Of a DNA stretch of 64,000 nucleotides, positions 7,514 through 47,650 are shown piece after piece. This DNA comes from Actinomycetes bacterium (lineage in GTDB: Bacteria; Actinomycetota; Acidimicrobiia; Acidimicrobiales; RAAP-2), in contig JAJZUS010000001.1 in the NCBI GenBank assembly GCA_021848365.1, positions 835,517 to 899,516 on the forward strand, read 5' to 3'. Positions within the stretch are counted from its first letter, which is position 1; each line of letters starts with the position of its first letter. A program made the translations under genes and the position numbers. Under the pieces are notes generated by a model. It saw only the letters and a list, made by a program, of their open reading frames with translations. It was not told where the DNA came from and searched no databases.

Positions 7514-8515
7514 TCAGTTCGACGCCTCGGTCAGTCCGGTGCGCCGCTCGCACCACGTCCAGAGCTCGTCACCGAGCGAGGCGTTCCCCGATCGCGTTCC
7601 GGGCAGGTAGTACTCCGATCGCCGTCGTCGGTCGAGCCAGATGCCGGAGCGAGTCCCCTCGGTGCCCGCCCCACCCGCCGCGAGCCAGACGGCGGTGTCG
7701 GCGCCCTCGTCGGGCCGGCGCAGGAGGGGTCCCAACCGAGAGAACCGGGGCAGAGCCTCGGCGAGGCCGGGCGTGTCGGTCCATCCCGGGTGCATCACGT
7801 AGCTGCGGATCCCCGACGACGACCAGCGACGGGACCACTCGTGAGCGAGCACGACCTGGGCGCGCTTTGCGCGGGCGTAGGCCGTGGTACCCCGGTACTG
7901 CTCGGGTCCCATCTCGAGGGACTCGAGGTGGAGGGCTTGGGTGTACATCCCTCCGGACGACACGGTCACGATGGTGGCGAGGTCCGACTCGGCGAGTCGC
8001 CCCGCGAGGTGCCAGGTCAGGCGGAAGGGAGCGAGGAGGTGGGTCGCCACCGTCATCTCGGTGCCGTCGACGTCGGTCGCGAAGTGGGGGAGGAGGGCGC
8101 CGGCCGAGTGGACGATGCCGTCGAGCCGCTCGAGGTCGTCCGCCAGCTCGCGCGCCGCCTCGTCGACCTCCGCGCCGCGCCCGAGGTCGACTCGCCAGGT
8201 ACGGGCCCGCACGCCTCGCTCCCGGGCGCCGCGGGCGACGGATTCGAGGCGGTCCGGGTCACGTCCCCCGAGGACGAGGTCGGCGCCCCGTCGGGCGAGT
8301 CCGTCCGCGATGGCGCGCCCCACTCCCGACGAGGCCCCGGTGACGAGCAGCGTCCGGCCCCGCACGGACGGCGGATCGCTCCACTCCTGGGTCGCGCGAC
8401 GCAGGAGGAAGCCGGCGCGACTGAAGCTGCCCACGATCGTCATCTCGAGTGCGGCGTCGAGGGATCTCGCAATGGACGGGGGCATGTCGGCGGCGACCGA
8501 CCGGAGCGGTCTCAC
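7514..8515 (-). CDS. SDR oxidoreductase, DHRS12-like
   Basis: A 333-residue short-chain dehydrogenase with an N-terminal extension of about 50 residues before the cofactor motif TGASSGVG. Catalytic residues are present: Ser in TVSSGGMYT and Tyr/Lys in TAYARAK. The HSAGALLP, VMHPGWTDTPGL and SGIWLDRR segments match the DHRS12-like branch, in which the C-terminus extends past the usual fold. The GTG at 8515 has TAAGAT 6 bases upstream, a leaderless arrangement, and this hexamer overlaps the TTAGTGCTAA operator shared with the B12-regulator promoter. The divergent partner operon encodes FAD oxidoreductase, DUF1365 and CFA-type methyltransferase. Genes of this set often occur together in light-induced clusters, and a lipid-related substrate is plausible. 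Confidence 0.85.
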   Translation of the reverse strand: MRPLRSVAADMPPSIARSLDAALEMTIVGSFSRAGFLLRRATQEWSDPPSVRGRTLLVTGASSGVGRAIADGLARRGADLVLGGRDPDRLESVARGARERGVRARTWRVDLGRGAEVDEAARELADDLERLDGIVHSAGALLPHFATDVDGTEMTVATHLLAPFRLTWHLAGRLAESDLATIVTVSSGGMYTQALHLESLEMGPEQYRGTTAYARAKRAQVVLAHEWSRRWSSSGIRSYVMHPGWTDTPGLAEALPRFSRLGPLLRRPDEGADTAVWLAAGGAGTEGTRSGIWLDRRRRSEYYLPGTRSGNASLGDELWTWCERRTGLTEASN

Positions 8516-8518
8516 GGC

Positions 8519-8537
8519 GCAATCTTAGTGCTAAATT
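8519..8537. promoter_or_regulatory. Candidate light/B12 operator 1 overlapping divergent promoters
   Basis: The near-palindrome TTAGTGCTAA (8525-8534) lies between the divergent SDR and FAD genes. On the minus strand its end forms TAAGAT (8527-8522), 6 bases from the SDR GTG. On the plus strand its end forms TAAATT (8532-8537), a plausible -10 for the FAD operon. The same decamer recurs at 14610-14619 beside the B12-binding regulator. Over 16 aligned bases (8519-8534 against 14604-14619) 13 are identical. Confidence 0.6.
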
Positions 8538-8588
8538 AGAGCGACGGGTCGAGGTCCCTCGAGCTCCGCAGTCGCACGAGGAGATCGA

Positions 8589-9842
8589 ATGCGCATCGCC
8601 ATCGTCGGATCCGGGATCTCGGGTCTCACCAGCGCACACCTCCTGGCTCCGCACCACGACGTGACGGTCTTCGAGAGCGACCACCGGCCGGGCGGGCACG
8701 CGCACACGGTCGACGTCGAACTGTCCGACGGTCGAGTCGCCGTGGACACCGGATTCATCGTCTACAACGAGAGGAACTATCCGGGGTTCACGGGCCTGCT
8801 GGCGGACCTCGGGGTGTCGACCCAGCCGAGCAGTATGAGCTTCAGCGTGAGCGATCCGCGTCGGGGGCTCGAGTGGCGCCCGGGTTCCGTGCGCTCCCTC
8901 CTCGCCCCGCAGGTGGGCGTCTCACGGCGTGAGGTCCTCGCAACCCTCTCGGACATCGCGGCCTTCAATCGTCGGGCTCGTTCCCTGCTCACCGAGCCCG
9001 GTGAGCCGTCACGGACGTTGCGCGACCTCATCGACGACGTGCGGGGCGGGGAGCGAGTCGCGCAGTGGTACCTGCGTCCGATGGTGTCCGCGATCTGGTC
9101 GGCACCCCTCGAGGACGCCCTCGACATCCCGGCGCAGACCTTCGTGCGCTTCTTCGAGAATCACGGCCTCCTCGCGGCAACGGGTCGTCCGGCCTGGCGA
9201 ACCATCGTGGGCGGGTCTCGCTCTTACGTGAACGCCATCAGCGATCGACTCGGTGACCGCCTGCGACTCGGCCAGGGGGCCGCCAAGGTCACGCGTCGGC
9301 GCGACGGGGTCGAGGTCGTCAGCGAGTCGCGCGGGCCCGAGTTCTTCGATCACGTGATCTTCGCGACTCACAGCGACGTGAGCCTCTCCCTCCTGAGCGA
9401 TCCGACAGAGGCCGAGCGGGCGGTCCTGGGGGATCTCCGGTATCAGACGAACTCGGTGGTCTTGCACACGGACCGATCTCTCTTGCCGGTGGCCCGCCAC
9501 GCCTGGGCGAGCTGGAACTACCGCGTCGGTGCGGGACCACGCGGCGCGACCGTCACCTACCACATGAATCGCCTGCAGTCGCTCGCGACCCGTGACGAGG
9601 TCTGCATCACGTTGAACCAGGACGAGGCGATCGATCCGGCCACTGTTCTCGGACGCTACGAGTACGCCCACCCGATGCTCGACGCGGCCGCGATCGCCGC
9701 GCAGGGACGCTACGAGGAGATCAGCGGTCGGTCGGGGACGTGGTACTGCGGCGCATACTGGGGGTATGGATTCCACGAGGACGGCGTACAGAGCGCGATG
9801 CGGGTCTGTCGGGCACTCGGGGCGTCGCTGGTGAGCGCGTGA
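8589..9842 (+). CDS. FAD-dependent amine-oxidase-like oxidoreductase (COG2907 type)
   Basis: A 417-residue flavoprotein. The N-terminus RIAIVGSGISGLTSAHLL is an FAD-binding Rossmann motif, followed by FESDHRPGGHAHT and VDTGFIVYNERNYP. Both are typical of the predicted NAD/FAD-binding proteins found beside DUF1365 and CFA synthase genes. It starts at ATG 8589 after a GAGGAG site and overlaps the DUF1365 gene by 4 bases. In Rhodobacter-type clusters, proteins of this neighbourhood take part in converting methylated fatty acyl chains of phospholipids toward furan fatty acids. I recall that from the literature without certainty about which gene does what, so an acyl-chain desaturase or dehydrogenase role is inference. 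Control by operator 1 is likely. Confidence 0.85.
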   Translation: MRIAIVGSGISGLTSAHLLAPHHDVTVFESDHRPGGHAHTVDVELSDGRVAVDTGFIVYNERNYPGFTGLLADLGVSTQPSSMSFSVSDPRRGLEWRPGSVRSLLAPQVGVSRREVLATLSDIAAFNRRARSLLTEPGEPSRTLRDLIDDVRGGERVAQWYLRPMVSAIWSAPLEDALDIPAQTFVRFFENHGLLAATGRPAWRTIVGGSRSYVNAISDRLGDRLRLGQGAAKVTRRRDGVEVVSESRGPEFFDHVIFATHSDVSLSLLSDPTEAERAVLGDLRYQTNSVVLHTDRSLLPVARHAWASWNYRVGAGPRGATVTYHMNRLQSLATRDEVCITLNQDEAIDPATVLGRYEYAHPMLDAAAIAAQGRYEEISGRSGTWYCGAYWGYGFHEDGVQSAMRVCRALGASLVSA

Positions 9843-10579
9843 GGAGCGCCATCTACGAGGGCCGGGTCCGGCACCGTCGGCGGTTCCCCGTCGAGCACGC
9901 CTTCGAGTACCGGATCGCCATGCCCCTCCTCGACCTCGCGGAGATCGAGGAGGTGACGGCTCAACACCCGCTCTGGGGGCACGAACGTCGTCGTCCGGTC
10001 AACTTTCGCCGTCGGGACTATCTGGGACCCGTCGGCGTCCCCCTCGACACGGCCGTGCGAGATCTCGTGCAGCGCGAGACCGGTCAGCGGCCGATTGGAC
10101 CGATCACCGTGCTGACGCACCCGCGAACGTGGGGCTGGCAGTTCAACCCGATCTCCCTCTACTTCTGCTTTGACGCCGCGGGCGAGCGCGTGGAGGCCCT
10201 CGTCGCCGACGTCACGAGCACGCCGTGGCACGAACACCGGGCGTACGTGGTGGGGCCGGCCGGCACGCACCGGGTCGCGAAGGACATGCACGTCTCGCCG
10301 TTCGTCTCGATGGACGTCGTCTACGAGATCACCTACCGAGACCCCGGATCGCACCTCGTCGTCACCATTGACGTCATCGAACACGGAGAGACGGTGCTCG
10401 AGACGTCCCTGACGATGACGCGGCACGCGATCGACCGTCGCCAGCTGGGACGCGTCCTCTGGTCGTACCCGGCCATGACCTGGCGCGTCTCGCTCGGCAT
10501 CTACCGCCAGGCGCTCGAGCTCTGGCGCCGACGCGTACCCTTCGTGGCGCATCCCGAGCGCAAGGCCGAGCGTGTCTGA
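9839..10579 (+). CDS. DUF1365 domain protein
   Basis: A 246-residue protein beginning RSAIYEGRVRHRRRFPVEHAF, the standard opening of DUF1365. Further signatures are VNFRRRDYLG, TVLTHPRTWGWQFNPIS-YFC and TPWHEHRAYV. Function is not established; the family is nearly always adjacent to a COG2907 flavoprotein and a CFA-type methyltransferase, as here. The GTG at 9839 overlaps the preceding stop (GTGA), and its own stop overlaps the next gene by 8 bases, so the three are translationally coupled. It is probably a partner in modifying membrane acyl chains. Confidence 0.85.
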   Translation: MRSAIYEGRVRHRRRFPVEHAFEYRIAMPLLDLAEIEEVTAQHPLWGHERRRPVNFRRRDYLGPVGVPLDTAVRDLVQRETGQRPIGPITVLTHPRTWGWQFNPISLYFCFDAAGERVEALVADVTSTPWHEHRAYVVGPAGTHRVAKDMHVSPFVSMDVVYEITYRDPGSHLVVTIDVIEHGETVLETSLTMTRHAIDRRQLGRVLWSYPAMTWRVSLGIYRQALELWRRRVPFVAHPERKAERV

Positions 10580-11813
10580 CCCCACCGTCACCACCGTCCG
10601 ACCCACCGGGTCCCTCGCCGAGCGAGTGGACGACTCGCGGATCGTCGCCCGCGGTGCCCGCATCGTGCTGCGCGGACTGCTCGCGCGAAGTCGTGGGGGA
10701 CGGCTGACGATCATCGAGGGTGGGGATCGACGAGAGCTCGGTCGGGGAGAGCTCGCGACGGACCTTCGCGTCCACGACTCGCGGGCCTATACGGCCCTCC
10801 TGCGCCACGGCTCCGTGGGCCTCGGCATCGGATACCTGGAGGGGTGGTGGGACGCGGAGGACCTCGTCACCCTGGTCCGTATCCTCGTGCGGGCTCGCGG
10901 ACGCCTGGGTCGAGCCCAGGACGCGGTCGGGCGGGTGGCGAGTACGGTGCTCGACCCCGTGCGTCGCCGGCGGCGCCAGCGGGGTCGCCAGGCTGACCGG
11001 CGCATGGTGCGGGCCCACTACGACGTGGGCAACGACCTGTTCGCGGTGATGCTCGATCCCACCATGTCGTATTCGTGCGGCTACTTCGAGAGCCCCGCAT
11101 CGACCTTGGAGGAGGCGTCGATCGCGAAGATCGAGCGGCTCGCGGAGATGCTCGACCTGGGTCCGGAGGATCACCTGCTGGAGATCGGGACCGGTTGGGG
11201 TGGGCTCGCGACGCACGTCGCCGAGCGCTACGGGTGTCGCGTGACGACGACGACGATCTCGGCCGAGCAGTTCGCCGCCGCGACGCGGCGCGTTCGTGAC
11301 CTGGGGCTCGCCGAGCGGGTGACAGTCCTCCACGACGACTACCGCGACCTGACGGGAACCTACGACAAGCTCGTCTCGGTCGAGATGATCGAGGCCGTCG
11401 ACTGGCGTGAGGTGCCGCACTTCTTCCGCGAGTGCGCTCGACTGGTGCGGCCCGGGGGTCGCATGGCGCTGCAGGCCATCGTGATCGAGGACGACAGCTA
11501 CGAGCGGGCGAAGATGACCACGGACTTCATCAAGGAGTTCATCTTCCCCGGCGGGAGCCTGCCCTCGGTGCAGTCGCTCCTCACGGCGAGCGCTCGTGCC
11601 GGCTGGCACCTGTCGCGAGTCGAGGACATCGGCCTGCACTACGCGGAGACGCTGCACCGGTGGAGGGATCGCGTCGACGCTCGACGCGAGGACGTGACCG
11701 CCCTCGGCTACGACGAGCGCTTCCAGCGACTCTGGACGCTCTATCTGACGTACTGCGAAGGGGCGTTCCTCGAGCGCCACGTCAGCGACGTCCAGGTGCT
11801 CCTGGAGCGATAG
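10572..11813 (+). CDS. Cyclopropane-fatty-acyl-phospholipid synthase family methyltransferase
   Basis: A 413-residue SAM-dependent methyltransferase acting on unsaturated acyl chains of membrane phospholipids. The SAM site LLEIGTGWGGLATHVA, the substrate region AHYDVGNDLF-MLDPTMSYSCGYF and TTTTISAEQ are all family signatures, and an N-terminal domain of about 130 residues precedes the catalytic fold as usual. Family members make cyclopropane, mid-chain methyl or (UfaM type) methylated furan-precursor acyl chains. The flanking flavoprotein and DUF1365 genes point toward the last group or a light/oxidative-stress modification, by inference. GTG 10572 overlaps the DUF1365 stop. It is the last gene of the operon. 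Confidence 0.88.
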   Translation: MSDPTVTTVRPTGSLAERVDDSRIVARGARIVLRGLLARSRGGRLTIIEGGDRRELGRGELATDLRVHDSRAYTALLRHGSVGLGIGYLEGWWDAEDLVTLVRILVRARGRLGRAQDAVGRVASTVLDPVRRRRRQRGRQADRRMVRAHYDVGNDLFAVMLDPTMSYSCGYFESPASTLEEASIAKIERLAEMLDLGPEDHLLEIGTGWGGLATHVAERYGCRVTTTTISAEQFAAATRRVRDLGLAERVTVLHDDYRDLTGTYDKLVSVEMIEAVDWREVPHFFRECARLVRPGGRMALQAIVIEDDSYERAKMTTDFIKEFIFPGGSLPSVQSLLTASARAGWHLSRVEDIGLHYAETLHRWRDRVDARREDVTALGYDERFQRLWTLYLTYCEGAFLERHVSDVQVLLER

Positions 11814-11867
11814 GGGTCGCGACGCAGCCGGGCTCGACGGTGGTTGCTACGAAATCCGTACTCGATA

Positions 11868-11873
11868 TATATT
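11868..11873 (+). promoter_or_regulatory. Leaderless promoter -10 (TATATT)
   Basis: TATATT lies in an unusually A/T-rich patch and ends 6 bases before the ATG at 11880. Transcription starting about 7 bases downstream would begin at the start codon itself; no Shine-Dalgarno sequence is visible. Confidence 0.5.
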
Positions 11874-11879
11874 CCGTCG

Positions 11880-13385
11880 ATGCGTCGGGTGAGTCGGGGC
11901 GGCATCGTCGTCGTGTTGGTGGGGGTCCTCGCGTCCCAGGGTGTACCCCGGGTCGGCGCGCAGGAGCATCGGGGGAGCGTCCCCTCGCGGCGCGCGGCGA
12001 GTGCCTCGGTGGTACCCACGTACCACAACTTGGGAGCGATCAGCTCGTCCAGTACCTCCGACGGCTCGTACTACCTCTCGGGCTGGGACAACGCGGCGTC
12101 GGCGTCGGGGGCCGGCTTCTCCTGGTACTCGCTGGCCTGGCCCGTACTGCCGCAACCGATCAAGGGATTCCAGATGGGTCTGGCCGGAACGTGGATCACT
12201 CCGAGCGACCCGGGCACGCCGGTCGCGACCATTCAGCACCTGTGTGACACGAGCCCGGTGCAGGGCATCAAGAACACGGTTCAGGATCCGGCCAGTGGGA
12301 CGTTCGGCCTCCAACTGTTCCAGACGATCGAGGGCGGTCTCGGCTGGTGGGCCAACGAAGAGTTCACGTCCGCGACGCCGAAGTACATCGTCAACATCAC
12401 GAGTAACTGCTACGAGAACGCCGTGAGCACGCCGGGTTGGGGCACGTTTGGGACGAGCCCGCTCGCTCGAAACCAGACCGCCTTCGCCCAATTGAGCAAT
12501 CGGATCCTCATGCCGCCCGACGGCATGACGCTGAATCCGACGAGCACGCCCGGCTACATCGGCACCAACTGGTCGGCCCTCACGTTCCCCGCGACGGGGC
12601 CGACGAGTGGCGTCGCCACGGGGCCCAACGACTGGACCGTGTTCCTCAACGCGGCGAACTTCCAGGGCCCGCTCGGTTACGTGGTGCCCCAGTTCTGGTC
12701 GCAGGCCTCGAGCGCCAACGCCTACCAACGCGGGCTGACGTTGGACGTACGCCCCGGCATCGCGTACTCGCTGGCGTCGGAGTGGAACTCGATCCCCTAC
12801 TTCGAGAGCACCGACTCGTCGGGGGCCGTCTACTCCAAGATCCCCCCGCTGCAGTTCCCGGTCGACGCGAATGGACGGACGGTGATCGGTGAGGACTTCT
12901 CCGCGTACGGGCCCGGGGCGCTCGCCACGCCCCTCGAGAACGCCCTGTCGACGGGGTCACCGCTGCCCGCGACGATCAACGCCAGTAGCGTCGTCCCGCT
13001 CACGATGAGCACGTCCAGTGTCCCCGTCTACCAGGACGGGGCCTCGGTGCCCGAACTGAGCAACGCCCTCACGGTGAGCACGACCTCGTCGGGGACGGGG
13101 CTCGCACTGACGTGGGGCGCGAGCGCGGCCTCCTCGACTCGGAGCCTGCCCCAGATCTTCGAGCGCAGTGGCGGCACCCTGTCGAGCACCTTGTCCAGCC
13201 CTGCTCCCGCGGCCCTCAGCGCGGCCAGCTTCCCTCGAGTGACTCCCAGCACCTTCGTGTACCAGGCGCCGAGTTGGTGGAGCGCCAGTCCGGCGGCCTC
13301 CCCGACCTTCACGGCGCGTCTAAGCGACGGCAGCGTCGCGACCTACCGGTGGTACGAGTTCGTCGACCAACCCGCGTTGCAGTAG
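11880..13385 (+). CDS. Secreted protein of unknown family, apparently cut short by an in-frame TAG
   Basis: A 501-residue exported protein that I do not recognise. The start MRRVSRGG followed by IVVVLVGVLASQGV and an Ala-containing cleavage region (RVGAQ) is a clear signal peptide. The mature part is rich in Ser, Thr, Gly, Trp and Tyr, as in extracellular beta-structured proteins of acidophiles, and has two Cys-containing stretches (HLCDTSP, TSNCYEN). The ATG at 11880 is chosen because TATATT lies 6 bases upstream; a frame extension to 11844 would put the promoter inside the gene. At 13383-13385 a TAG ends the frame, but the same frame continues with coding-like composition, so the protein may be a truncated allele. 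Confidence 0.7.
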   Translation: MRRVSRGGIVVVLVGVLASQGVPRVGAQEHRGSVPSRRAASASVVPTYHNLGAISSSSTSDGSYYLSGWDNAASASGAGFSWYSLAWPVLPQPIKGFQMGLAGTWITPSDPGTPVATIQHLCDTSPVQGIKNTVQDPASGTFGLQLFQTIEGGLGWWANEEFTSATPKYIVNITSNCYENAVSTPGWGTFGTSPLARNQTAFAQLSNRILMPPDGMTLNPTSTPGYIGTNWSALTFPATGPTSGVATGPNDWTVFLNAANFQGPLGYVVPQFWSQASSANAYQRGLTLDVRPGIAYSLASEWNSIPYFESTDSSGAVYSKIPPLQFPVDANGRTVIGEDFSAYGPGALATPLENALSTGSPLPATINASSVVPLTMSTSSVPVYQDGASVPELSNALTVSTTSSGTGLALTWGASAASSTRSLPQIFERSGGTLSSTLSSPAPAALSAASFPRVTPSTFVYQAPSWWSASPAASPTFTARLSDGSVATYRWYEFVDQPALQ

Positions 13386-13694
13386 TACGACTGGACGAGT
13401 GCGCAGAAGATCGCGATGCAGGCACTCGTCGTGGCGATGCAGAAGCAGTGGAACGCGACGGCCATGATGAGTCCGCCGAGCTCGGGCGCGCTCGCGTCGT
13501 TTGACTCCGGGCTCCTCGTGACCCCGCCCCCGGGCCTCCAGTACGGCTACGTGCCCATCGTCACGAGCCAGCGCCTGGCACCCGCTACACGGCCGCCGCG
13601 GCCAGTGCGCACTCTCATCTGCGTGAGGGATCACCACACGCGCCGGGTCCGCTCGCGCGCCCCGCACTGCCCGCCGGGGTGGCGAGCCACCTAA
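13386..13694 (+). pseudogene. In-frame continuation of the secreted-protein gene after TAG
   Basis: Directly after the TAG at 13383-13385 the same frame reads YDWTSAQKIAMQALVVAMQK and then QWNATAMM. Third positions are G/C-rich and the composition is protein-like for about 60 codons, to roughly 13570. Beyond that the reading becomes Arg/Pro-rich and may have shifted frame. I interpret this as the severed C-terminus of the upstream gene (nonsense mutation or base-calling error). Internal ATG codons have no convincing ribosome-binding site. It ends 11 bases before the convergent stop of the regulator gene. Confidence 0.5.
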
Positions 13695-13705
13695 CCCGTG
13701 ACGCG

Positions 13706-14557
13706 TCAGGTCGAGCGGCGTCGCGACGCATGATCCTGGCGCAGTCGCTCGACGAGGGCGACGACGTCACGGGCGTCGCGCCCCGCCCACTCGTCGGAGC
13801 CCAGCGACCGCGCCACGCGGGCCGAGGTCACCGCCGAGCCACCGACGACGACCGGGACCCCCGTCGCGCGCACCGCGTCCGTCGCGTCGCGCACGGCACC
13901 GTCGAGCCCGGGCGTCGTCACCGAGATGAGGACCGCGACCGGGTGCTCCTGCTGAGCGGTCTCGGCGAACGACGTGGCGGGGGTATTCGCCCCGAGTTCG
14001 ACGACGGCGTACCCGGCGCCGCGCAACTGGTCGGCGACCAGGGCGGCGGGGATGTCGTGCCACTCGCCAGCCACTGCTCCGACCACGATGGTGCCCCGCT
14101 TGCGACCGGGACGGGAGAACTGGGGGCCGAGACGAGCAACGAGACGCCGTGCCGTGGCACTGGCACGGTGCTCGTCAGCGACGCTCACGCGGCCCACCCG
14201 CCATCCCTCGCCCACCCGTCGTAGGGCGGGGGCGAGGAGGTCGAGGTGGATGTCCGTCGGGGAGGACCCGCCGGCGAGCGCGTCCTCGATGATGCGCCAG
14301 GCACCGGTCTCGTCCCCGGCGATCAGGCGATCGACGAGTCGGGGGGCGCGCCCCTGGGGGGCCGAGCGGACGGGGGTCTGGCGGGGGGATCGAAACGACT
14401 CGAGGTCGTCGAGGCGGACCCGCCATTCGTGGCCGTCCAGCTCGGCGGCGAGGCGTCCCGTGCGAACGTACCGGTAGGCGGTCATGTAGTGGACGCCGAG
14501 CTCGGCGGCCGCCTCCACGAGGCTGACGGTCCTCGACTGGTCGGGGGCGACGCTCAT
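13706..14557 (-). CDS. B12-binding MerR/excisionase-type regulator (CarH/LitR-like photoreceptor)
   Basis: A 283-residue transcription factor. Residues ~10-55 form an excisionase/MerR-type helix-turn-helix (VEAAAELGVHYMTAYRYVR-GRL). A helical B12-cap follows, with the light-sensor motif WRVGRVSVADEH (conserved Trp and Glu-His of CarH). A cobalamin-binding Rossmann fold then has GEWHDIP at the lower-ligand position (usual form DxHxxG), ELGANTP and VVVGGSA. Known CarH/LitR proteins bind adenosylcobalamin in the dark, repress DNA as tetramers and release it on light-driven Co-C cleavage. I chose ATG 14557, with GAAAGGG upstream; the longer frame to 14602 crosses its own promoter. TAAACT (14612-14607) overlaps the operator, implying autoregulation. 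Confidence 0.88.
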   Translation of the reverse strand: MSVAPDQSRTVSLVEAAAELGVHYMTAYRYVRTGRLAAELDGHEWRVRLDDLESFRSPRQTPVRSAPQGRAPRLVDRLIAGDETGAWRIIEDALAGGSSPTDIHLDLLAPALRRVGEGWRVGRVSVADEHRASATARRLVARLGPQFSRPGRKRGTIVVGAVAGEWHDIPAALVADQLRGAGYAVVELGANTPATSFAETAQQEHPVAVLISVTTPGLDGAVRDATDAVRATGVPVVVGGSAVTSARVARSLGSDEWAGRDARDVVALVERLRQDHASRRRST

Positions 14558-14603
14558 GGGCCCTTTCGTGCTGGTTGGCCCGCTCGGAGGCGAGCGACGC
14601 ACC

Positions 14604-14619
14604 GCTAGTTTAGTGCTAA
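14604..14619. promoter_or_regulatory. Candidate light/B12 operator 2 between regulator and SRPBCC gene
   Basis: TTAGTGCTAA (14610-14619) is identical to the decamer at 8525-8534. On the minus strand it continues into TAAACT, the likely -10 of the regulator gene. On the plus strand it directly abuts the AAGGAGG ribosome-binding site (14621-14627) of the SRPBCC gene. A repressor bound here would block both genes. Confidence 0.6.
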
Positions 14620-14632
14620 TAAGGAGGCCATC

Positions 14633-15076
14633 GTGCCGAGAGCCGTCGTGGAGATTCAGGCAACGTGTACGCCCCTGGAGGCGCTCGACTACCTCGCCGA
14701 TTTCTCTCGGGCCCCCGAGTGGGACCCGAGCGTCGTGACGGCTCGCCGCCTCGACGACGGTCCGGTTCAGCGGGGGAGTCGATTCGAGCTGACGGTGAGG
14801 GCCGCGGGTCGCACGACCCCACTCGTCTACGAGCTGGTGGCGAGGGAGTCGGACTCGATCGTTCTCCTCTCGCGCTCGAACCGCCTGGAGTCGCGTGACA
14901 CCATCACCGTGGCGCCGACGTCGGTGGGTGCGCGGGTGCGCTACGAGGCCGAACTGCGAGGGCTCGGCTGGTCCCGCGTGGCGAATCCCCTCCTCGCGAT
15001 CGTCTTTCGGAGGCTCGCGGGCCGCGCGGCGGAGGGCCTGCGTCGGCAGTTGAACGCGATCTCGGGCGCGAACTGA
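14633..15076 (+). CDS. SRPBCC-fold (polyketide cyclase-like) protein
   Basis: A 147-residue START/Bet v 1-like ligand-binding protein. It opens with the family pattern VEIQATCTPLEALDYLADFSRAPEWDP, then RGSRFELTV and a C-terminal helix beginning RRLAGRAAEGLRRQL. Such proteins bind hydrophobic ligands, and many are annotated as polyketide cyclase/dehydrase or lipid-transport proteins; no catalytic residue can be named. The GTG at 14633 has a strong AAGGAGG 5 bases upstream. It is divergent from the CarH/LitR-like regulator and shares its operator, so light-induced expression is likely; SRPBCC genes are plausible members of such regulons. Confidence 0.8.
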   Translation: MPRAVVEIQATCTPLEALDYLADFSRAPEWDPSVVTARRLDDGPVQRGSRFELTVRAAGRTTPLVYELVARESDSIVLLSRSNRLESRDTITVAPTSVGARVRYEAELRGLGWSRVANPLLAIVFRRLAGRAAEGLRRQLNAISGAN

Positions 15077-46249: not shown

Positions 46250-46261
46250 CGTGGCTCGGCC

Positions 46262-47650
46262 GTGAGCTCTCTCGCCCCCGCCATCGTCTGGTTCCGTCGG
46301 GACCTGCGCCTCCGGGATCACCCGGCCCTCGCCGCGGCGGCACGGGCCGGTGGCGGGCGCGTCGTTGCCCTGTTCGTGGTCGACGAGCGACTCCTCGCCC
46401 CGGCGGGACCGACCCGAGCCGCCTACCTCGCCGCCACCGTGCGCGAGCTCGACCGGACGATGGGTGGGCGACTGGTGGTGCGCGTCGGGGATCCCGCGGC
46501 CGTGGTCCCGGCCCTCGCGCGCGAGGTGGGTGCCCCGGCGGTCTGGGTGAGCGAGGACTTCGGTCCGCAGGGCCGTCGACGGGACGAGCGCGTGGCCGCG
46601 GCCCTCGCGGCCGAGGGGCGCGAGTTGCGGTCGGTCGACTCGCCGTACGTCGTCGCTCCGGGGGTCGTACGGGGGCCGCAGGGGAATCCGTACCGGGTCT
46701 TCACGCCCTTCTTCCGAGCGTGGGACGAGATCGCACTCGACATCCCGGTCGACGTTCCCGACGTGGAGTGGATCGGCGCGGACGGGACGTCGGCCGACGA
46801 GATCGTCGCCCGGTCCTCGCGACGCCGTCCCGAGATCTTCGGGGACCTTCCCGACGGGCCCGCCCCTCTCGCGCCCGCGGGAGAGGCGGCCGCGCGAGCG
46901 GCCCTCGCGGTGGCTGTCGAGCGCGCGCGCGACTACGAGGATCGGCGCGACGCCCTGGCCGAGGAGGGGACGAGCCGGCTCAGCGCCCATCTGCGATTCG
47001 GGACCCTCCACCCCCGAACGGTCCTGGCGGCCCTCGGCCCGGGACCGGGGCCGCGGGCCCTGCGACGCCAGCTCGCGTGGCGGGAGTTCTACGCCGACGT
47101 CCTCTTCCACCACCCCGCGTCGGCCTGGCGGAACCTCCAGCCCACCCTCGACGGCCTCGAGGTCGATCGTGACGGGGCGGCCCGAGAGCGGTTCCGGTGC
47201 TGGGCGCGGGGGGAGACCGGCGTCCCCCTCGTCGACGCGGCGATGCGTCAGTTACTCGAGGAGGGCTGGATGCACAACCGGGCGCGCATGGTGAGCGCGT
47301 CCTTCCTCGTGAAGCACCTCCACCTCGACTGGCGCTGGGGCGCCCGCTGGTTCGCCTGGCGTCTCGTCGACTTCGACCTCGCCTCGAACCAGCACGGCTG
47401 GCAGTGGACCGCCGGGACCGGCACCGACGCGGCCCCTTTTCACCGGGTCTTCAGCCCGGTGCGACAGGCGGAGCGATTCGACCCTGAGGGAGCCTTCATC
47501 CGACGTTACGTGGGCGAGCTCGCGACCGTCGAGGCGCCCGAGTGCTGGTCCCCGGGTGCCGCGGGGTATCGTCACCCTGTCGTCGACCTCGACGTCGAGC
47601 GCCGCGAGGCGCTCGCGCGATTCGCGGCGGCCCGCGGGAGGCGACCGTGA
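46262..47650 (+). CDS. phr: Class I CPD photolyase
   Basis: A 462-residue light-driven repair flavoprotein. The N-terminal antenna domain starts IVWFRRDLRLRDHPALAAAA. The FAD domain has TSRLSAHLRFGTLHPRTV, RQLAWREFYADVL, MRQLLEEGWMHNRARMVSAS, DFDLASNQHGWQWTAGTGTD and AAPFHRVFSP, the CPD photolyase signature. It repairs cyclobutane pyrimidine dimers. A TAGCGT hexamer lies 9 bases before GTG 46262. No TTAGTGCTAA operator is seen here, so no link to the light regulon at 7.5-15 kb can be claimed. Overlaps hemW by 4 bases. Confidence 0.95.
   Translation: MSSLAPAIVWFRRDLRLRDHPALAAAARAGGGRVVALFVVDERLLAPAGPTRAAYLAATVRELDRTMGGRLVVRVGDPAAVVPALAREVGAPAVWVSEDFGPQGRRRDERVAAALAAEGRELRSVDSPYVVAPGVVRGPQGNPYRVFTPFFRAWDEIALDIPVDVPDVEWIGADGTSADEIVARSSRRRPEIFGDLPDGPAPLAPAGEAAARAALAVAVERARDYEDRRDALAEEGTSRLSAHLRFGTLHPRTVLAALGPGPGPRALRRQLAWREFYADVLFHHPASAWRNLQPTLDGLEVDRDGAARERFRCWARGETGVPLVDAAMRQLLEEGWMHNRARMVSASFLVKHLHLDWRWGARWFAWRLVDFDLASNQHGWQWTAGTGTDAAPFHRVFSPVRQAERFDPEGAFIRRYVGELATVEAPECWSPGAAGYRHPVVDLDVERREALARFAAARGRRP

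Follow-up and report, generated by a model that had tools for sequence, protein, structure and literature searches.

Two copies of a palindromic decamer in an Acidimicrobiales genome are very probably docking sites of a B12-based, light-sensing regulator of its own gene and lipid genes

The 64,000-nucleotide stretch analyzed here (hereafter the window; positions 835,517 to 899,516 of contig JAJZUS010000001.1, GenBank assembly GCA_021848365.1, from an actinomycete of the Acidimicrobiales) holds two copies of the decamer TTAGTGCTAA, one of them at the gene for a B12-binding helix-turn-helix (HTH) regulator. Judged from sequence comparison, the decamer is very probably the docking site of this regulator, a B12-based light sensor that would control its own gene along with likely light-protective membrane-lipid genes. 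We also consider it likely that the decamers are operator cores at which the adjacent regulator, loaded with adenosylcobalamin (AdoCbl), represses in the dark and from which it is released by light, allowing protective lipid synthesis. The quantities computed here are the conservation of the site, its co-occurrence with the regulator, the B12 and light signature residues, and the overlap with -10-like boxes. The system appears to join a known sensor and a known type of target, but with a different DNA-binding module and operator grammar, in many species of one bacterial class.

Both copies of TTAGTGCTAA are exact and lie where the original prediction, made from this DNA alone, had placed them (8525-8534 and 14610-14619). 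The 13 of 16 identical bases that it counted around them are found when 8519-8534 is aligned with 14604-14619, and the -10-like hexamers that it read on the minus strand are TAAGAT (8527-8522) and TAAACT (14612-14607). Its assignment of the sites to the regulator promoter and to a gap between two other genes is borne out as well: site 1 falls in the divergent intergenic region of a short-chain dehydrogenase/reductase (SDR) gene and a flavin adenine dinucleotide (FAD)-dependent gene, and site 2 in that of the regulator and a Polyketide_cyc2/SRPBCC gene. Frequent occurrence genome-wide had been set beforehand as one of two signs that would tell against the prediction; across the genome (three contigs, 1,956,679 bases) TTAGYRCTAA occurs at two places, both in the window, and TTAGNNCTAA occurs at the same two and nowhere else in the 1.96 Mb. 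A reversed control pattern is likewise found at two places, so that rarity by itself proves little; because the two counts are equal, the genome count is unremarkable and it is the locations that matter. With up to two mismatches the window holds 7 matches vs 2.94 expected, a number reached by 3 of 100 shuffles and weak when taken singly, and with up to three mismatches the extended 16-mer ANTTTAGYRCTAAANT gives one extra place genome-wide, compared with 6 for the control. Chance, which the window statistic and the genome count leave standing, is rejected by the comparative tests alone.

A search for the regulator covered 148 related genomes, from which 30 loci were drawn. TTAGNNCTAA lies directly 5' of the regulator in 10 of these (L003-L008, L010, L024, L026 and L032; L and G numbers denote loci and genomes), and a form with one mismatch, TTAGCAGTAAA, in 6 others (L012-L015, L017 and L018). 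Forty longer regions were also compared, of which 38 were selected because they hold the regulator and 2 because they hold a site. The exact word is present in 24 of the 40, and it stands at the FAD junction in all 15 regions that show the FAD gene with upstream DNA, despite rearranged genes. Gene order does vary among the relatives: the SRPBCC gene shifts from the regulator to the SDR gene, and the regulator itself lies in the SDR operon in L079, L086, L089 and L090. The operator sites follow the SRPBCC and regulator genes when these are relocated between operons; the SRPBCC gene adjoins an operator even where it has moved beside the SDR gene.

A scan of public genomes extended this comparison to the best 80 of 347 regulator relatives (1.18 Mb; judged by record title, mostly metagenome-assembled genomes of Actinobacteria and Acidimicrobiia), in which the presence of the regulator is by selection and proves nothing. 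The word TTAG-N2-CTAA occurs 58 times in 44 of the 80 loci, compared with 0-10 copies for each of eleven composition-matched palindromes, and its free centre is YR in 57 of the 58 copies. When all palindromes with 4-bp arms and spacers of 0-12 were scanned without bias, it came out on top in the 300 bp that precede the regulator, being present there in 18/80 loci, where its overall density across the loci predicts 1.3. A weight matrix was trained on 34 sites from the window and the relatives, with 64 of the 80 loci held out. Operators 1 and 2, both in the training set, are its first and second scores in the window (19.9 and 19.1), and 41 of the 64 held-out loci carry a matrix site somewhere in their fetched flanks, against a mean of 4.4 for permuted matrices. 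The tie between operator and regulator, which the original prediction had flagged as its own conjecture, is strongly supported by comparative data, among them the FAD junctions (15/15), the copies in the public loci and the held-out matrix sites.

The regulator is a B12-binding HTH protein, as predicted: Pfam assigns HTH_17, B12-binding_2 and B12-binding to 20 of 20 sequences of an alignment (A1), while MerR (PF00376) matches 8 of the 20 weakly, with a best E of 0.0012. The sensor half carries the complete light-responsive cobalamin signature, whose elements are reported as validated (SignatureFinder; PMC11796333): GxxW at 116-119, EH at 129-130, GxxH at 164-167 and GxxxP at 189-193, with all eight residues invariant in A1. 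The adenosyl-sensing motif Wx9EH is present (W119, E129, H130), and in a set of 38 sequences its W is kept in 36, its E in 37 and its H in 36. The motif described for class I CarH/LitR proteins (PMC9304148), D/ExHx2G/P-x41-SxT/V-x22-27-GG, is also found, as E165-x-H167-x2-P170, S212-V-T214 and G239-G240 with spacings x41 and x24. The predicted structure (mean pLDDT 82.3, pTM 0.63) comprises a small N-terminal winged HTH, a four-helix bundle and a Rossmann domain. Ranked by fold, PDB entries place photocobilins first and CarH after them; ranked by sequence, photocobilins are followed by the cobalamin-binding protein 8jbs and methionine synthases, and then by CarH. A supply of AdoCbl is plausible because the genome encodes a cobalamin adenosyltransferase.

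A protein of this kind could bind the palindrome and yet sense cobalamin or redox status in place of light. Many B12-binding domains are not photoreceptors, and L093 and L094 have degenerate sensor residues. Set against this are the four light-signature elements of PMC11796333, all of them present and without variation across A1, and the company that the regulator keeps in other species, which includes photolyase, ferrochelatase and RPE65-type oxygenase genes and operons resembling the ufa genes for furan fatty acids. We regard a purely cobalamin or redox sensor as unlikely, although it keeps some real weight.

Co-occurrence was examined through DUF1365, which marks the operon of FAD, DUF1365 and cyclopropane-fatty-acid-synthase-type (CFA) genes in 51 of 146 relatives. 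Of 52 DUF1365 places, 51 FAD junctions were compared: regulator and site are both present at 20, the regulator without the site at 8, the site without the regulator at 1 and neither at 22 (Fisher p 6.6e-7, with relatedness ignored and with four genomes whose B12-domain matches lack an HTH, G046, G078, G132 and G145, counted as regulator-absent). FAD operons of genomes without the regulator thus lack the site in 22 of 23 cases, and in the lone exception (G031, contig C35) the contig ends within CFA, where the regulator would be expected next. Gene order by itself does not bring the site, because many regulator-less operons keep the SRPBCC/SDR-FAD order without it. Across 29 regulator-bearing genomes there are 58 exact copies. 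Sorting by hand places 34 of them at the clusters, 32 with a YR centre, and the other 24 outside, 11 with a YR centre.

Another transcription factor of the same cells might bind the site, with the B12 regulator merely one of its targets. The site is absent from 8 of 28 regulator-bearing FAD loci (G010, G038, G043, G044, G045, G079, G141 and G095), 24 of the 58 copies just described stand away from the clusters, and in other genomes sites are also found near WhiB, ECF (extracytoplasmic function) sigma and TetR genes, all of which would suit such a factor. These neighbours (WhiB, ECF, sigma, TetR), however, vary among the annotated loci, and the operon is without the site in nearly every case where the regulator is absent. 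In the HTH, 33 of 38 relatives carry the motif HYMT, and of the five HYQT-type relatives four have no site scoring at least 9, while L095 has one at 13.4. A different factor is, in our estimate, improbable.

The decamer of the original prediction is best read as the core of a larger putative operator. At FAD junctions it extends to the 16-bp palindrome AnTTTAGYRCTAAAnT, with all four flank letters in 13 of 16 junctions (window included); individually, A at -3 and T at -1 are each present in 15 junctions, position +10 is A in all 16, and position +12 is T in 14. This sequence reads TAAAnT on each strand, so that its arms form divergent -10-like boxes, on both strands and not only on the minus strand. 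The 19 sites oriented toward a regulator gene keep the extension on the regulator side (A at +10 in 15/19, T at +12 in 17/19), and the extension is not conserved on the side away from it. The conserved arms fit an operator laid over -10 boxes, and because each arm doubles as such a box, a bound regulator would stop RNA polymerase in both directions at once.

The same arms could instead make the palindrome a plain core promoter, symmetric and bidirectional, in which RNA polymerase reads two opposed -10 boxes and no dedicated regulator takes part. TAAAnT stands on both strands at most FAD junctions, as counted above, and in L086 and L089 a TTGACA lies 16 bp 5' of TAAATA and TAAACT by hand count. 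G4, C7 and the free YR centre are nevertheless foreign to a -10, the divergent SRPBCC/SDR-FAD junctions of regulator-less genomes lack the word, and the left -10 is not conserved at regulator-oriented sites. With just two copies in the whole genome the word is much too rare to be a general promoter element, an idea ruled out on this ground, and we hold the core-promoter account to be very improbable. The CIRCE heat-shock element, bound by HrcA, has the consensus TTAGCACTC-N9-GAGTGCTAA. The idea that our site is half of a CIRCE element can be practically dismissed: site and CIRCE arm have TTAGCACT in common, but both window sites lack a second arm at 9 bp as well as a C at position 9, the element is compact, its palindromic arms standing 2 bp apart, and no chaperone is found among the open reading frames (ORFs) annotated beside sites, the genome not having been searched for CIRCE.

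Several observations weigh against the B12 regulator as the protein that acts at these sites, in the manner proposed. They include the regulator-bearing FAD loci without a site, the copies away from clusters (among them the 11 with a YR centre), the disregard of relatedness in the Fisher test and the treatment of the four HTH-less genomes in the same table. Conservation upstream of orthologues, expected by the original prediction, was found in many relatives and not in all, since 36 of the 80 public loci have no exact copy. Permuted matrices reach a maximum of 27/64 held-out loci. In G045/L094 the operator site is retained with Wx9EH lost, and the HYQT-type L095 has its site. A strict sigma-70 scan calls no promoter at either window site, and the core is invariant at the compared junctions in part because the exact word itself served to select most of the sites. 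The only DNA_photolyase-family match of the genome, an open frame at 46250-47650 (+) in the same window, has no TTAGYRCTAA operator near it, so the organism's own photolyase was rejected as a target. Finally, a Streptomyces LitR is described as promoting transcription once activated (PMC12705666), so control here may have either sign.

Among known systems, the class I CarH/LitR proteins of Thermus, Bacillus megaterium and Myxococcus are AdoCbl photoreceptor repressors. The regulator shares with them the B12-binding_2 and B12-binding sensor with Wx9EH and ExHx2P-x41-SxT-x24-GG, the small N-terminal winged HTH (in the predicted model) and an operator over promoter elements. It differs in its DNA-binding domain: the HTH_17 domain carries HYMTxYRYVRTGRL where CarH has the MerR-type recognition helix RxWERRY, no copy of which is present in the alignment of regulator relatives, and the protein scores 76.6 bits against the NCBIfam CarH equivalog NF052513, below the cut-off of 400. 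The operators differ too, an inverted repeat with a TTAGYRCTAA core here and tandem 11-bp direct repeats (nnnnTnnACAn) there, as given in PMC9304148. No TnnACA occurs on either strand in the 141 bp around either window site, and a CarH-type operator was ruled out on the absence of both the direct repeats and TnnACA. Targets diverge as well, being ufa-like lipid genes here and crt genes there. The earlier label of CarH/LitR-like therefore suits the sensor; because the DNA-binding domain is HTH_17 and the operator an inverted repeat, this is not a standard CarH/LitR protein.

The gene content recalls a different family. In Pseudomonas mendocina, phrB and ufaM are reported as strongly light-induced, one cluster also holds SDR and FAD oxidoreductase genes, and the authors tie this to class II LitR (PMC9758184). 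The class II regulons (PplR/PmlR) resemble ours in SDR, FAD oxidoreductase and UfaM, here sometimes with a photolyase. They differ in that class II LitR is described there as thought not to bind B12, with PmlR2 switched by a short LOV protein, and in the operator consensus, T(G/A)TACA/TGTACA (PMC9758184). The nearest solved relatives of the sensor half, by both sequence and fold, are the photocobilins SasPcob and AbDPcob, one of them from an Acidimicrobiaceae bacterium; in these, according to PMC10979010, the B12 domain is joined to a globin-like domain that binds biliverdin, and the fusion stands by itself or comes with an enzyme domain. A literature search covering few subscription papers found no description of this operator and no paper combining Acidimicrobiia with CarH; of the papers spelling the decamer, a part was judged, by title and the start of the abstract, and none in that part deals with a light or B12 operator.

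For the lipid genes the closest parallel is Rhodobacter sphaeroides, in which UfaM, UfaD and UfaO, the last containing DUF1365, are reported to make a methylated furan fatty acid (PMC7380195). The set there, an S-adenosylmethionine (SAM) methylase, an NAD/FAD desaturase and a DUF1365 protein, matches ours in domain types, and its product is described as protecting from singlet oxygen (PMC7380195). Here the genes form a contiguous operon beside a B12 HTH regulator, unlike in Rhodobacter, and their chemistry is a prediction from the domains. The Rhodobacter pathway is overproduced in chrR mutants. It is under RpoE control.

We therefore suggest, conditionally, the following course of events. Two regulator subunits paired head to head, or a larger oligomer through two of its DNA-binding domains, would sit on AnTTTAGYRCTAAAnT, and in the dark the AdoCbl-loaded protein would keep its own gene, the SRPBCC and SDR genes and the FAD-DUF1365-CFA operon repressed. 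Light would break the Co-C bond, and the regulator would leave the DNA. The proteins then induced could produce furan or methylated fatty acids as quenchers of singlet oxygen. Direct binding, the light response and the product chemistry are what we infer in this scheme, as is repression in preference to activation, for which the grounds are the -10 overlap and the CarH precedent.

CarH is in use as a green-light switch. If the scheme is right, the large natural clade of this regulator would offer an orthogonal B12 light switch, in which the CarH sensor is coupled to a different DNA-reading module and to a short palindromic operator of 16 bp, and the light regulons of uncultured Acidimicrobiia would become predictable from their genomes. 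It would also extend the light control of furan-fatty-acid-type lipid genes, seen in Pseudomonas with a LitR thought to be B12-free, to a B12-type sensor in Actinobacteria.

The features at the two sites are collected in Table 1. The six genes of the candidate regulon hold in content. FAD, DUF1365 and CFA genes look like a single operon, given their overlaps, and the domain content of a furan-fatty-acid operon (FAD desaturase, DUF1365 and SAM fatty-acyl methylase together) is present. Photolyase, lipid and pigment genes had been offered as typical targets; the targets here read better as a furan-fatty-acid (ufaD/ufaO/ufaM-like) operon with SDR and SRPBCC genes than as pigment genes.

Table 1. 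Genes and putative regulatory elements at the two operator sites (coordinates within the window)
Feature	Position	Strand	Remarks
SDR oxidoreductase	7514..8485	-	GTG start at 8515 also possible
-10-like TAAGAT for SDR gene	8522..8527	-	overlaps operator 1; read from sequence
Operator 1 (putative)	8522..8537		core TTAGTGCTAA 8525-8534, between divergent SDR and FAD genes; same junction in relatives
-10-like TAAATT for FAD-DUF1365-CFA operon	8532..8537	+	overlaps operator 1; read from sequence
FAD-dependent amine-oxidase-like protein	8589..9842	+	UfaD-like by operon context
DUF1365 protein, UfaO-like	9839..10579	+	DUF1365 E 3e-72; 4-bp overlap with FAD gene
CMAS/cyclopropane-fatty-acid-synthase-type methyltransferase, UfaM-like	10572..11813	+	8-bp overlap with DUF1365 gene
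B12-binding HTH regulator, 283 aa	13706..14557	-	HTH_17 + B12-binding_2 + B12-binding; alternative GTG start 14602
-10-like TAAACT for regulator gene	14607..14612	-	overlaps operator 2; read from sequence
Operator 2 (putative)	14607..14622		core TTAGTGCTAA 14610-14619, between regulator and SRPBCC gene; kept in relatives
Polyketide_cyc2/SRPBCC protein, 147 aa	14633..15076	+	divergent from regulator

Between CFA and the regulator lies a secreted-looking ORF (11844-13385) without a Pfam match that ends at TAG; its frame is open again after the TAG up to 13694, as in a truncated gene or one with a suppressed stop.

The neighbours annotated in other species were hand-picked and serve as examples, not as a census. 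At least two of FAD, DUF1365 and CFA are near the regulator in 28/80 loci, and photolyase-like ORFs are present in 7/80. In L107, L108 and L110 such an ORF comes after the SDR gene in the same orientation and has a site upstream of it, and in L173 a site at 2686-2695 stands directly 5' of a Pfam-confirmed photolyase ORF starting at 2705. Sites also precede clusters of WhiB, regulator, Fpg and ferrochelatase genes (L151, L156, L158, L171 and L178; Pfam for L151 and for the Fpg of L158, tblastn for the rest), ECF sigma genes (L164, with an anti-sigma gene, and L176) and fasciclin genes (L085 and L145). Weaker or one-mismatch matrix sites precede DUF4331 in L130 and L152 and group-2-type sigma genes in L120, L125 and L162, with an RPE65-type gene alongside in L125 and L162; at the group-2-type sigma gene of L146 the copy is exact. 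Beyond this class, the regulator occurs with matrix sites just upstream of it in two loci whose record titles place them in Dormibacteria, part of another phylum: Candidatus Aeolococcus (L147; 11.9 at -67) and Candidatus Amunia (L159; 11.8 at -49), the latter with a photolyase-like ORF after the regulator. Whether these examples reflect a lineage widespread in Acidimicrobiia, perhaps reaching Dormibacteria, in which a CarH light sensor with an HTH_17 module on a bidirectional-promoter operator, where one light-released dimer opens both divergent genes together, has been repeatedly re-targeted (to furan-fatty-acid synthesis, photolyase, WhiB-Fpg-ferrochelatase, ECF or group-2-type sigma and carotenoid-oxygenase-like genes) is a question on which we are evenly balanced.

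A group-2-type sigma gene lies near a regulator relative in L120, L125, L146, L153, L162 and L175, and also in L117. An RPE65-type, carotenoid-oxygenase-like ORF is present in L125, L146, L153, L162 and L175. Among the loci with this sigma gene, matrix sites are found in L120, L125, L146, L162 and L175, with none in L153 or L117. A plasmid collection contains 45 records that match the regulator; in a single record the match spans at least 80% of the protein (37% identity).

Regulator-less ufa-like operons have promoter words of their own. A second recurring word, AGTACCGGTAA-like with variants, lies 5' of FAD in L185, L188, L191, L192, L197 and L199, and G031 has two operons, one with TTAG-CTAA and the other with a AGTACCGGTAA-like kind of word. 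A third pattern, a CTACTACCTNTAG-like and then a TAGGCTCG-like word, stands 5' of FAD in a more distant ufa-like operon (L189, L190, L193, L198, L204, L206 and L208). The AGTACCGGTAA-like words and the two operon types of G031 suggest regulator swapping, and in the regulator-less ufa-like operons of the genus, with AGTACCGGTAA-like or CTACTACCTNTAG-like words, regulators may perhaps have been swapped; no regulator was identified among the ORFs listed around some of these operons. Paired exact operators were observed in L156, L171, L168, L177 and L164, at 19, 19, 15, 15 and 33 bp apart, respectively, and perhaps serve a tetramer.

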